Below, piece by piece: positions 12,688 to 24,649 of a stretch of DNA of 33,702 nucleotides. This DNA comes from Colwellia sp. Lineage in GTDB: Bacteria; Pseudomonadota; Gammaproteobacteria; Enterobacterales; Alteromonadaceae. The notes under the pieces are model-generated. The model did no database searches. It was not told where the DNA came from and was given only the letters and a program-made list of their open reading frames with translations. The stretch spans positions 1 through 33,702 of the forward strand of contig JALJPA010000025.1 of the NCBI GenBank assembly GCA_022969215.1. Reading direction: 5' to 3'. A program made the translations under genes and the position numbers. The first letter of the stretch is position 1. Each line of letters begins with the position of its first letter.

Positions 12688-15066
12688 ATGTTAACTATTG
12701 CCGAGCAAATCGCTCAAGAACTCAATGTTAACGCGGTACAAATTAATGCCGCTATTACCTTGCTTGATGATGGTGCTACTGTGCCATTTATTGCCCGTTA
12801 CCGTAAAGAAGTTACTCAAGGTTTAGATGATAACCATCTTCGTCACTTAGCACAGCGGTTAAGCTATTTACGTGAGTTAAATGACCGCCGAAAAGTCATT
12901 TTAACCAGCATTAAGCAACAGGATAAACTCAGCCCTGAGCTGGAAAAATCAATTCTGCAAGCCGATAATAAAACCCGTTTAGAAGATTTATATTTACCCT
13001 ATAAGCCAAAGCGCCGTACTAAAGGCAAGATTGCCAGTGAGGCAGGTATAGCGCCTTTAGCGAACAAACTATTTAATAACTGGCAACTTTCTCCCGAACA
13101 AGAAGCAAAAGCTTTTATCAATCAGGCGGCAGGGTTTGCTGATGTAAAGTCGGTACTTGATGGTGCGAGTTATATTCTAGCCGAACGTTTTAGCGAAGAT
13201 GCCAATTTATTAGCAAAACTGCGTCGTCATTTATTAAAACAAGCACATTTAACCAGTAAACTAGTTAAGGGCCAAGAGAAAGCAGCAGCTAAGTTTCGAG
13301 ACTACTTTGCCCACAGTGAAAAACTAAGAACGGTACCTTCTCATCGTATGTTAGCGATGTTGCGTGGCAGAAATGAAGGTTTTTTACAACTTCATATCGA
13401 TGTTGATCCCGGAGAAGAGGCAAGAGTATGCAGTAGTGCTGAGCAAATGATTAGTGAGCACTTAACTTTGCGCTTAACTAATCAGGCCGCTGCCGAGTTT
13501 TTAACTAAGGTTGTACAACTCACTTGGAAAGCTAAATTAAGTATCAGTTTAACCAATGAATTGGTTACTAGCTTACGTGAGCAAGCTGAAACCCAAGCGA
13601 TAGAGGTTTTCTCTAATAACCTTGCCGATTTATTGATGGCTGCTCCTGCTGGTCCACAAGTCACCTTGGGTTTAGATCCTGGTTTAAGAACAGGCTGTAA
13701 AATTGCTATTGTCGATGGCACCGGTAAGTTATTACATACAGCTACCATCTTCCCACATGCGCCGCAAAATCATTGGGATAAGTCAGTAAGAACCTTAGTT
13801 AATATTTGTCGTCAACATAAAGTCGAGTTAGTGGCTATTGGCAATGGCACAGGCTCGCGTGAAAGTGACAAATTAGTTGCTGAAGTTATGCAAACTTTTA
13901 AAACTGATGAAAGCAAAGTGCAATTAACTAAAATGATTGTAAGTGAAGCCGGGGCATCTGTTTATTCTGCCTCTGAATTTGCCGCCAATGAATTTCCAGA
14001 CCTTGATGTGTCAATACGGGGCGCTGTTTCCATTGCTCGACGATTACAAGATCCCTTAGCTGAGTTAGTAAAAATTGACCCTAAAGCAATTGGTGTCGGC
14101 CAATATCAGCATGATGTTAGCCAAAGCCAGTTGAGTAAAACCCTTGATGATGTCGTTGAAGATTGTGTAAACGCCGTTGGTGTTGACTTAAATAGTGCCT
14201 CTGCAGCGTTATTAACCCGTGTTTCAGGGTTAAACAAAACCATGGCTAATAACATTGTTGCTTTTCGAGATAGCCAAGGACGCTTCACTAATAGAAAGCA
14301 ATTGAAAAAAGTTGCCCGATTAGGGCCAAAAGCTTTTGAGCAATCAGCGGGGTTCTTACGTATCACAGACGGTGATAACCCGTTAGATCAATCTGCCTTG
14401 CACCCTGAGAGTTATGCCTTGGTAGAGAAAATAATCAAGAAACTACAACTTGATATTACTCAGGTGCTCAACAACAGCGCACAATTAAGTGCTTTAGATA
14501 TCAGCCAATTAACAAATGATGATTTTGGTGAAGTTACGGTAAAAGGAATTATCGATGAGCTAGCAAAGCCCAATAGAGATCCACGGCCAGAGTTTAAAAC
14601 CGCTAGTTTTGCTGAAGGTGTAACTAGCATGGCTGATTTAACTTCAGGTATGATACTTGAAGGGGTGGTGTCTAATGTTGCTAACTTTGGTGCTTTTGTT
14701 GATATAGGTGTGCATCAAGACGGTTTAGTGCATATTTCATCAATAACTAATAAATTTATCAGTGACCCACGTGAAATTGTTAAGGCAGGGGATATTGTTA
14801 AGGTGAAAGTGGTAGAAGTAGATGTTGCCCGCAAACGCATTAGTTTAACAATGCGTTTGGATGAGCAAACTAACGCAGCAACTAACAAGCCTTTTCAGCC
14901 AACAGATAATGGTAAACGTGATAACAATAAAGCAAAAAACCAGGTGAGCAGTAGCAATAATCAAAGAAAATCCGCAGTAAATCAAAATAAATCAAAAGGT
15001 AAAACAGTGGATAATGCCGCTATGGGTAACGCTTTCGCAGATGCTTTTGCTAAGCTTAAGAAATAA
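12688..15066 (+). CDS. tex: Tex-family RNA-binding transcriptional accessory protein
   Basis: 792 aa; [17 protein letters not shown], YqgF-like [17 protein letters not shown], HhH and C-terminal S1 domain ([31 protein letters not shown]). Confidence 0.97.
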
Positions 15067-15100
15067 AAATAACTATTTTTAATTAATTGTCGAAATAGTG

Positions 15101-15129
15101 TTGACTATCGTAATGAGAATGATTACTAT
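15101..15129 (+). promoter_or_regulatory. sigma70-type promoter with embedded Fur box, copy 1
   Basis: TTGACT (15101-15106), 17-bp spacer ATCGTAATGAGAATGAT, TACTAT (15124-15129). The spacer/-10 region CGTAATGAGAATGATTACT (15109-15127) matches 13/19 of the Fur consensus GATAATGATAATCATTATC. Confidence 0.8.
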
Positions 15130-15135
15130 TTACTT

Positions 15136-15335
15136 GGTTGCTTAGGCAGTGAATGCTCTCTCACTAAATAAGCAGCGGCAAAGTATGGAACTTAGTGGTT
15201 ATGCTCCAGGACACATAACCACTAGGTGACCACTTTAGGATTCTACAGAGTTTTGCTCAGTTCAATTCGACTTTAAAATTTTTGATGGTTTAGCCAGTAA
15301 CATTTTCTTGATGGAAATGTGTTACTGGCTTTTTT
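15136..15335 (+). ncRNA. Candidate Fur-regulated sRNA, copy 1 (~200 nt)
   Basis: Promoter/Fur box upstream; hairpin TGCTTA..AGTGA../TCACT..TAAGCA; hairpin CTTAGTGGTTATG-CTCCAGGACA-CATAACCACTAGG; unstructured conserved linker; terminator GCCAGTAACA..TGTTACTGGC-TTTTTT. 5' end is estimated from the -10. Confidence 0.78.
15293..15335 (+). terminator. Rho-independent terminator of sRNA copy 1
   Basis: GCCAGTAACATTTTCTTGATGGAAATGTGTTACTGGCTTTTTT. Confidence 0.88.
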
Positions 15336-15385
15336 ATGCCTGTTATATTTTGACTACTTAAATTCAGAAAAGTTAACAAATAGTG

Positions 15386-15414
15386 TTGACATTAGTAATG
15401 AGAATGATTACTGT
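15386..15414 (+). promoter_or_regulatory. sigma70-type promoter with embedded Fur box, copy 2
   Basis: TTGACA (15386-15391, perfect -35), 17-bp spacer TTAGTAATGAGAATGAT, TACTGT (15409-15414); same Fur-like AGTAATGAGAATGATTACT. Confidence 0.8.
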
Positions 15415-15420
15415 TTACTT

Positions 15421-15620
15421 AGTTGCTTAGGCAGTGAATGCTCTCTCACTAAATAAGCAACAGAGAAGTACGGAACTTAGTGGTTATGCTTCAGGACACA
15501 TAACCACTAAGTGACTACTTTGGGATTCTACAGAGTTTTGCTCAGTTTAATTCGACTTTAAAATTTTTGATGGTTTAGCCAGTAATATTCTCCTAATCGA
15601 CAAATATTACTGGTTTTTTT
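15421..15620 (+). ncRNA. Candidate Fur-regulated sRNA, copy 2 (~200 nt)
   Basis: Collinear with copy 1 at a constant 285-bp offset from -35 through terminator start; about 15 mismatches over 200 positions by eye; hairpin CTTAGTGGTTATG-CTTCAGGACA-CATAACCACTAAG is fully Watson-Crick paired. Confidence 0.78.
15578..15620 (+). terminator. Rho-independent terminator of sRNA copy 2
   Basis: GCCAGTAATATTCTCCTAATCGACAAATATTACTGGTTTTTTT. Confidence 0.88.
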
Positions 15621-15680
15621 ATGCCCTTTTTAAATGATTACTTCGTTAGGGGCGTTGGTATTAGTACTTTGTTATTGCCG

Positions 15681-17315
15681 CTAAATTTTAAAGCGACCAA
15701 CAACCTCAGACATAGCATTACTGCTGACCTTCAACTTCTGGCTCGTTTCACTAAGTTGCTCGGTAGTCGCGAGAGACTCATCGGTCATTCCTGCTAAATC
15801 ATTAATACGTAAATTAACCTCATCAGCAGCTTGGCTTTGTTGTTCAGTCGCTCTGGCTATTTGTGTGTTCATATCAGAAATAACTTCCATCAAACGGTCA
15901 ATTTCAGAAAGGGAATCATCTGCCTTTGCTGTTTGCTCAACGGTTTTCAGGGAGATGTCTTGGCTGACCTTCACCGCAGCTACGGCTTCTTGCGCTCCAG
16001 CTTGTAATTTTTGTATCATCTGTTGAATTTCATTGGTGCTTTGTTCAGTACGATTAGCTAAAGTACGTACTTCATCGGCTACTACGGCAAAACCACGGCC
16101 TTGCTCACCAGCGCGTGCAGCTTCTATTGCGGCGTTTAGCGCTAACAAATTTGTTTGCTCAGCAATGCCTCTAATCACATCCAGAACAGAGCCAATATTG
16201 TCACTTTCAGAAGCAAGGCTGGCAACCACTTGACTAACCTCATCAATATTGCTCGACAGAGATTGCATTTGTTTGATGGTATGAGAGATGATTTCTTTGC
16301 CGTCAGAGGTATTATTTCTGGCATCATTTGCTGCTTGTTCCGCAGAGCTAGCATTATCACTCACTTCCTTAATTTGTGAGGTCATTTCTTCCATTGCAGT
16401 GGCAACTTGCACGGTAATGTCGTTTTGATTTTGTATTAGCGATTGAGTGGTATCACTAGCGCCAGAAACAGCTTCGGCATGGTCTAAAACTTGTGAGGTG
16501 TTATCGGCGACATCTTGTAATAACTGCCGCATTTTACCGGTGAACTCATTAAAGTAGTTAGATAAACGAGAAATTTCATCTTGACCGCTATCATCTAAAG
16601 ACTTGGTTAGATCGCCTTCTCCTTGGGCAATATCTTTCATTAATTCAGCCGCTGAGCGGGTAGGAATTAAGATGCTATTACCAATAACATAACTTAAGCC
16701 AATGATCACAATGGCAATAACTACGCTATCTATTATGATCATATTACGTTGTTCGGCAAAGGTCGCATCAATATCATCTAGGTAGGTGCCGGTACCAATA
16801 ATCCATTGCCAAGGGGTGAAACCTTTGACAAAACCAATTTTGTCAACAGGATCATCAAAACCAGGTTTGGCCCATTTGTAAGAGACAAAGCCTTCCCCTT
16901 TAGCCTTGACTATATTCACCATATCAATAAATAAAGCTTTGCCGTCAGGATCTTTAACACCAGCAACATTCTTGCCATTGAGCTGTGGCTTTATTGGGTG
17001 CATTATCATGTTAGGGGTAAAGTCATTAACCCAAAAATAATTGTTGGTATCGTAGCGTAAACTGGCAATAATATTTAAAGCCTGCTTTTGTGCTTGTGCC
17101 TCAGTGAGTTCGCCTTTTTGTTGTAAGGCATAATGATGTTCCACTATACCGTAAGTGCTATCTATTAATTCGTTGGTGGTGAATTTTTTTTGTGTCATTA
17201 AGGAATGGTATTCTTCTGACAAGCTCATGGCATCTAGCGCAGTGATGCCAATAATAATTAAGGCCACCAGCATGGCTAACCTTTGTTGTATGCTGAATTT
17301 ACGTAAAAAATCCAT
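15681..17315 (-). CDS. Methyl-accepting chemotaxis protein with periplasmic Cache domain
   Basis: 544 aa; sCache-type region ([25 protein letters not shown]...[16 protein letters not shown]), HAMP, MCP signalling hairpin [41 protein letters not shown]. Confidence 0.95.
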
Positions 17316-22438: not shown

Positions 22439-24574
22439 TTAAAAAGCAACTTGCACAGCAAGGCGGTAGCTAATGCCGTCACCAACGGTTACGTTAGAAG
22501 TACCACCACCGGCTAGGTAGTCGGTATCAAATAAGTTTTGTACATTAAAGCGTAAGTTAATGTCGGTATTTTGTAGGGCTATTTTATAAGTAGCACCGAC
22601 ATCAATACGAGTATAAGCATCTTTTACTACAGTGTTATCTTGGTTAGCAAAACGCTCACCTTCATAAAAAGCACCAGCATTAATGGCTAGGTTTTCAGTT
22701 AATTCATAACGTGACCAAACTGATGCTGACCACTCCGGCGCATCAATAGGGGTCATGCCAGTATATTCTTCATCATTTTCATAAGTGGCATCAAGGTTCA
22801 TCATAGAGGCCATAACAAAAAGTTTATCGGTTACTGCACCTTGTGCGGCCACTTCGAAGCCTTTATGACGCTGCTCGCCCACTTGTGAAGTGCGGTAGCT
22901 ATCATCGTCATTATACTCAGTAACTAATACACCAGACTTAGTGATGTCGAATATTGCTGTAGTTAGTAACAAACGGTCATCCAATAGTTGCCATTTAGCA
23001 CCAAGCTCATATTGTTTTGAAGTCATGGCATCGATTTCCATGCCATAGTTTAAATCTTCATCATCATTAATAGTTTCACTGCTTTGTGGCTCAAAACCTT
23101 CACTGTAGCTGGCATAGAAAGTTGCATTTTCACTTGGGTGATAAAGTACACCAGCTTTAGGTAATAATGATTCATTATCAGCGCCAGTTTTACTTTGTTT
23201 ATCATAACGGCCACCAATCATTACTTGCCATTCTTGGTTAATAGTTATCAAGTCTTGGATATAAATACCGTAATAATTGTATTCACTGGTATAAAGGCTG
23301 TCATCTGTGGTGTAGCTAATATCAGGACGCGGTGGCTCAACTTGGCCAGCAGAGTACTCAAACGACTCGCCTTTTACTTTTAATTGACCGTAGTAATAAT
23401 CAAGGTAGTTAGCACCAACAAGTAAGGTATGCTCTACACCGGCAAGTTCGAATTCACCAGTAAAGTCAATAAAGCTGGTGGTGAACTGCCAATCATCAAA
23501 GCGGTCATAAGGTTTTGAGGTGTAGCTGTCTCCTTCGACAAAATCACTCGGCTTTTTCGCTGCTGATTCAAAACGTTGACGTTCAAATGTCTGCTCGTTA
23601 TAGCCAAATTTCACTTGCCAAGCATCATTGATAATATAGCTGGCATCAACACCGTAGTTTTCAACGGTAATATCAGTAAAGGCCCATGACATATCACGAA
23701 TGGTTTTATCATCGCCAATAACATTGCCTTCATCATCTAACCAAGCACCGGTATCTAAACCTGCTTTATCATTGGTTCTGTCATAATGAAAACGTACTAA
23801 TAAGTCGTCATTAATATCATAATCAACTACCAAGGCACCAAGGAAACGCTCACGATCTCTTTGCTCACCGTTTTGGTATTCACGTTGATAAGTGACATCT
23901 TGCTTAACTAAGTTAGCGCGGTAACGTAGTGACTCATCTTCAGTTATTGCACCACCTGCATCCAATGTCAGGCGAGATGAACCTTCTTGATCAACATCTA
24001 AACCTAGATTAAAGATAGAGTTAGTGGTTGGTTTTTTGGTAACCATATTAACTAAGCCACCAGGACCTGATTGACCGTATAAAATACTTGAAGGTCCTTT
24101 GATTACTTCAATGCTCTCTAAGGTTTCAATAGGTTGTTGGTAATGAGACCAATGTTGATGGCCGTCACGTAAATAACCATTTGAAGAGCTTAATTCAAAA
24201 CCACGTAAACTAAATACTTCACGGTTACGTTGCTTTGAACCTGCGGTTAAGCTGGCGTCATTTACAAGCACTTCACCTAAAGTAGTGGCTAATTGCTCGT
24301 TAATTACTGTGTTTGGAATAACGGTGACCGATTGTGCTGTTTCTAATAAAGAGATATTACCGCGCAAAGCACCGTTAGCATTATCAACTTTATAGCCATT
24401 AAAATAGCTACCTTTAACTTGAATCACTTCAATATCTTTAAGTGCTTTATTCTCTGTTGAATCATCGACAACCTTTTCTGTTGAAATATCAGTAACATTG
24501 TCTACAGTATCAGCCGAAACGGCTGTTGAAGAAAGTATCGCGCTTACGGCTAAAAATAGGGGAGAAAACTTCAT
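22439..24574 (-). CDS. TonB-dependent siderophore receptor
   Basis: Plug domain (ETAQSVTVIPNTVINEQ, IEVIKGPSSILYGQSGPGGLVNMVTKKP) and C-terminal barrel (NVQNLFDTDYLAGG); start preferred at MKFSPLFLAVSAILSSTAVSA (ORF track 24601); Fur box upstream. Confidence 0.92.
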   Translation of the reverse strand: MKFSPLFLAVSAILSSTAVSADTVDNVTDISTEKVVDDSTENKALKDIEVIQVKGSYFNGYKVDNANGALRGNISLLETAQSVTVIPNTVINEQLATTLGEVLVNDASLTAGSKQRNREVFSLRGFELSSSNGYLRDGHQHWSHYQQPIETLESIEVIKGPSSILYGQSGPGGLVNMVTKKPTTNSIFNLGLDVDQEGSSRLTLDAGGAITEDESLRYRANLVKQDVTYQREYQNGEQRDRERFLGALVVDYDINDDLLVRFHYDRTNDKAGLDTGAWLDDEGNVIGDDKTIRDMSWAFTDITVENYGVDASYIINDAWQVKFGYNEQTFERQRFESAAKKPSDFVEGDSYTSKPYDRFDDWQFTTSFIDFTGEFELAGVEHTLLVGANYLDYYYGQLKVKGESFEYSAGQVEPPRPDISYTTDDSLYTSEYNYYGIYIQDLITINQEWQVMIGGRYDKQSKTGADNESLLPKAGVLYHPSENATFYASYSEGFEPQSSETINDDEDLNYGMEIDAMTSKQYELGAKWQLLDDRLLLTTAIFDITKSGVLVTEYNDDDSYRTSQVGEQRHKGFEVAAQGAVTDKLFVMASMMNLDATYENDEEYTGMTPIDAPEWSASVWSRYELTENLAINAGAFYEGERFANQDNTVVKDAYTRIDVGATYKIALQNTDINLRFNVQNLFDTDYLAGGGTSNVTVGDGISYRLAVQVAF

Positions 24575-24630
24575 AAATAACTCAAACCTTAATGAATACA
24601 AATGTGCAATAAAATAATTGCGCGAATTCT

Positions 24631-24649
24631 AATGATAACTATTATCATT
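24631..24649 (-). promoter_or_regulatory. Fur box upstream of the TonB-dependent receptor
   Basis: AATGATAACTATTATCATT, inverted repeat AATGATAA-CTA-TTATCATT, close to the Fur consensus. Confidence 0.82.

Follow-up and report, generated by a model that had tools for sequence, protein, structure and literature searches.

Tandem small RNA genes under Fur-type operators in Colwellia: a likely counterpart of RyhB and PrrF

In E. coli, RyhB saves iron when the metal is scarce, and iron is often limiting for cold-adapted marine bacteria. The PrrF1 and PrrF2 RNAs of Pseudomonas (RF00444) form a tandem pair under Fur. RyhB itself (RF00057) evolves fast: in Shewanella and Vibrio it is a longer RNA (168 and 215 nt), and S. 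amazonensis carries tandem copies (PMC2964681). In S. oneidensis, sodB is repressed by RyhB (PMC5826389).

We analyzed a locus of the genus Colwellia in a stretch of 33,702 nucleotides (here called the window). Direct-repeat comparison identified two head-to-tail units of 255 bp each, spaced 285 bp apart and 89% identical, flanked by tex (12688-15066, + strand) and a methyl-accepting chemotaxis (MCP) gene (15681-17315, - strand). The units and their predicted signals are as follows.

15093..15347, + strand: unit 1 (direct repeat)
15378..15632, + strand: unit 2 (direct repeat)
15101..15129, + strand: sigma-70-type promoter of unit 1, TTGACT-17-TACTAT (sequence match)
15386..15414, + strand: sigma-70-type promoter of unit 2, TTGACA-17-TACTGT (sequence match)
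15110..15130, + strand: Fur-like operator of unit 1, overlapping the promoter (pattern match; conserved across the genus)
15395..15415, + strand: Fur-like operator of unit 2, inside the promoter (pattern match; conserved across the genus)
15293..15335, + strand: intrinsic terminator 1 (folding: stem and T run)
15578..15620, + strand: intrinsic terminator 2 (folding: stem and T run)

A first-pass annotation had described a tandem head-to-tail pair with a 285-bp offset and about 15 differences over the first 200 bp, each unit with its own promoter (17-bp spacer), Fur-like operator, and intrinsic terminator, and all of these elements were recovered. Compared without gaps from the -35 element, the copies differ at 15 of the first 200 bases and at 25 of 240, the excess sitting in the terminator loop. 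The bodies had been said to lack conserved coding potential; a frame comparison of both copies found no shared conserved reading frame longer than 26 codons. A generic terminator scan listed none in the stretch of the units; folding showed a stem and then a T run in each copy.

The sequence AATGAGAATGATTACTATT at 15112 matches the Fur-type pattern exactly, and the site at 15397 does so with one mismatch. The window holds 12 matches to this pattern versus 2.7 expected, a number reached by 0 of 100 shuffles, several of the 12 being both strands of a single site. Across the genus, a putative Fur-type operator was found by sequence match in all 33 aligned full-length units. Elsewhere in the window, a strong Fur-type site (24631-24649; one mismatch on both strands) lies directly upstream of the gene for a TonB-dependent receptor (22439-24601, - strand), a gene that is probably iron-regulated.

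BLASTN returned matches to the units in 33 of 37 genomes of the genus (the match in G006 was weak) and nothing convincing in 24 genomes from other families. When named genomes were scanned with a pattern, the 24 stretches obtained all came from Colwellia or Litorilituus. We built a covariance model, R1, from 32 transcripts; across a 395-genome sample of the order, strict filters gave matches in the genus alone. Laxer filters added two weaker relatives within the family, each with only part of the RNA: one has retained the first loop together with the 3' portion, preceded by a Fur-type operator, and the other, from another genus (L083), has an operator that fits the Fur type perfectly and a portion of the long hairpin, the first loop being absent. 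Some units of the genus are rearranged: two are interrupted, with ~260 bases between the two halves (L023 and L024), and one is internally duplicated, with nested partial copies (L026).

Tandem copies, up to three complete units in one genome, could also be produced by a mobile element or dispersed repeat that has no role in regulation. The distribution of the units argues against such an origin, which we consider scarcely credible. A search of the window's own genome found good matches at these two copies only, and the promoter, operator, and terminator are conserved. So is the neighborhood: at 29 loci examined, tex was a neighbor in 24 and the MCP gene in 20, with at least one of them present in 27.

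The predicted sRNAs have bodies of ~200 bases per unit, with ends placed from sequence, and contain two conserved elements, listed here.

15137..15335, + strand: predicted sRNA 1, ends inferred (model R1 match, 208.5 bits)
15422..15620, + strand: predicted sRNA 2, ends inferred (model R1 match, 207.1 bits)
15148..15163, + strand: near-invariant loop AGTGAATGCTCTCTCA, proposed seed of sRNA 1 (alignment, pairing energies)
15433..15448, + strand: the same near-invariant loop, proposed seed of sRNA 2 (alignment, pairing energies)
15190..15227, + strand: long hairpin of sRNA 1 with conserved loop CTCCAGGACA (repeat, folding, covariation)
15475..15512, + strand: long hairpin of sRNA 2 with loop CTTCAGGACA (repeat, folding, covariation)

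Both predicted transcripts fold far better than shuffled sequences (z of -5.7 for sRNA 1 and -6.3 for sRNA 2). The consensus fold has 42 pairs, and 97.9% of cells in the genus alignment can pair. Covariation amounted to 16 pairs changed on both sides and to 68 cells, compared with 8.3 and 18.4 in shuffles; these values were reached by 0 of 500 shuffles, and sliding the partners abolished the signal, in a test that favors the model in that the fold was derived from the same alignment. Such changes are plain in the pair table for helices 1, 5, and 6. Judged by this alignment, the units are a genus-wide structured RNA.

The loop AGUGAAUGCUCUCUCA, nearly invariant in the genus alignment, is complementary to the ribosome-binding sites of sodB and iscS and, for some members of the genus, to that of iscR. 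Among the sodB start regions of 30 genomes, which are far from 30 independent tests because related genomes share target sites, an alignment count gave GAGAGCA in 21, GAGAGTA (one G-U pair) in 7, and GAGAACA in 2; by the same alignment, GGAGAGCA stands upstream of sodB in 21/30. GAGAGC precedes iscR in 11 of 29 cases, with a site at iscS in others; within the isc operon, some members of the genus have the exact motif in front of iscR and others have it in front of iscS, and one genome has both. GAGAGCA also stood before the start in 4 of 319 other ORF calls in the search-returned loci, and all four were iscS.

Mean loop duplex energies were -12.8 kcal/mol for sodB, -12.6 for iscS, and -9.0 for iscR versus -6.6 for 243 other starts of ORFs in search-returned loci, contrasts that are not probabilities because a simple script called the ORF starts and the sequences share ancestry. 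A C/U-rich loop such as this one is expected to fit any Shine-Dalgarno sequence to some degree. Composition-preserving shuffles of the loop reached the contrast in 0 of 200 cases for sodB, 0 of 200 for iscS, and 3 of 200 for iscR, a comparison that corrects for composition but takes no account of selection for strong ribosome sites in the target genes. An exact 11-mer search antisense to the loop matched only the sRNA itself in the window's own genome, and no sodB turned up in the assembly of that genome, which is incomplete. The predicted complementarity to sodB and the isc operon is evidence beyond that offered by the first-pass annotation.

The RNA could instead be a Fur-controlled sRNA with other main targets, its pairing with sodB and isc being a by-product of a Shine-Dalgarno-like fit. 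Loops 2 and 3 (CTYCAGGACACAT and AAAATTTTTGATGG) are conserved as well as loop 1 and had no supported target in the pairing test, which leaves room for this reading; the energy contrast of loop 1, against both the 243 other starts and the shuffled loops, speaks the other way, and we consider the proposal rather improbable.

Further observations concern possible targets. Pairing with sdhC, a candidate target, was not supported among the 8 sdhC starts that passed the script filters. Searches also located acnB genes. Upstream of sdhC, a stretch of ~75 bases hardly varies within the genus (L145-L174); it includes a possible short leader frame, ATGAGTAACAATAATAAAAGTTGA, and looks like a conserved regulatory leader. 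In bases 1-2,400,000 of one genome (G036), GAGAGCA preceded the start of 7 ORFs, each of which bore a family name related to iron, Fe-S, or heme; this small set includes two neighbors, relies on home-made ORF calls, and was kept out of the argument.

We regard it as likely that the locus encodes a tandem pair of Fur-repressed, iron-sparing sRNAs whose loop pairs with the Shine-Dalgarno regions of sodB and isc. Fur would repress the paralogous genes in iron-replete cells, and the sRNAs, which presumably use Hfq, would be made under iron shortage. By pairing with the Shine-Dalgarno regions of sodB and iscS (and of iscR in some members of the genus), the invariant loop AUGCUCUCUC would block translation of the sodB and isc mRNAs and thereby spare iron. 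With an iron-repressor site in each promoter and a fixed loop that fits the start signals of genes for iron enzymes, the units probably save iron when it is scarce.

No Rfam family matched the units at gathering or relaxed thresholds, including the RyhB and PrrF models. Run on 61 genomes, the RF00057 model gave nothing above noise in the genus (best E about 0.007), and the units did not reach its family cut-off; RF00444 scored just 15.7 bits, where its cut-off is 90. By these tests, the Colwellia RNA is not a member of the RyhB or PrrF family. Two RyhB-like traits do occur in the units: a Fur operator over the promoter, by sequence match, and complementarity to sodB through a different seed.

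Shared regulator and target class, together with the fast evolution of RyhB (PMC2964681), might mean that the units are a diverged true RyhB homologue, moved from its place beside polA. In Shewanella-like relatives, RyhB adjoins polA, and the Colwellia units lie 18-25 kb from polA in 7/7 genomes with both on one contig (G001, G002, G004, G005, G010, G011, and G012). Against this descent stand the lack of an RF00057 match above noise in the genus and the RyhB core GACATTGCTCACATTGCTTCC, which is present in relatives and absent from genus alignment A1; we consider it unlikely. We give slightly less than an even chance to a replacement of RyhB in Colwellia by an RNA of unrelated origin that is controlled by Fur, carries a seed of its own for ribosome-binding sites, and has come by convergence to the same targets.

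The best reading is that the Colwellia RNA is a functional counterpart of RyhB and PrrF without detectable sequence homology. The first-pass annotation had proposed such a counterpart, tandemly duplicated and of no recognized family; the repeat and the Rfam result agree with it, and the genus-wide operators, fold covariation, and family tests lend it support. If true, Colwellia, a cold-adapted marine genus, gains its missing iron-sparing RNA, an RNA family that Rfam lacks is added, and a further case is provided of the same regulatory job done by RNA of unrelated sequence.

Like RyhB, the units combine a Fur-type operator, an intrinsic terminator, and sodB and isc mRNAs as proposed targets; unlike it, they lack a match to the family model, use another seed, are about 200 nt long, and occupy another position. 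With PrrF1/PrrF2 they share the tandem arrangement under Fur (here an operator match), whereas they fall below the RF00444 cut-off. The RyhB RNAs of Shewanella and Vibrio resemble them in length, in tandem copies (S. amazonensis), and in the sodB target (S. oneidensis) but keep the RyhB core and the position beside polA.
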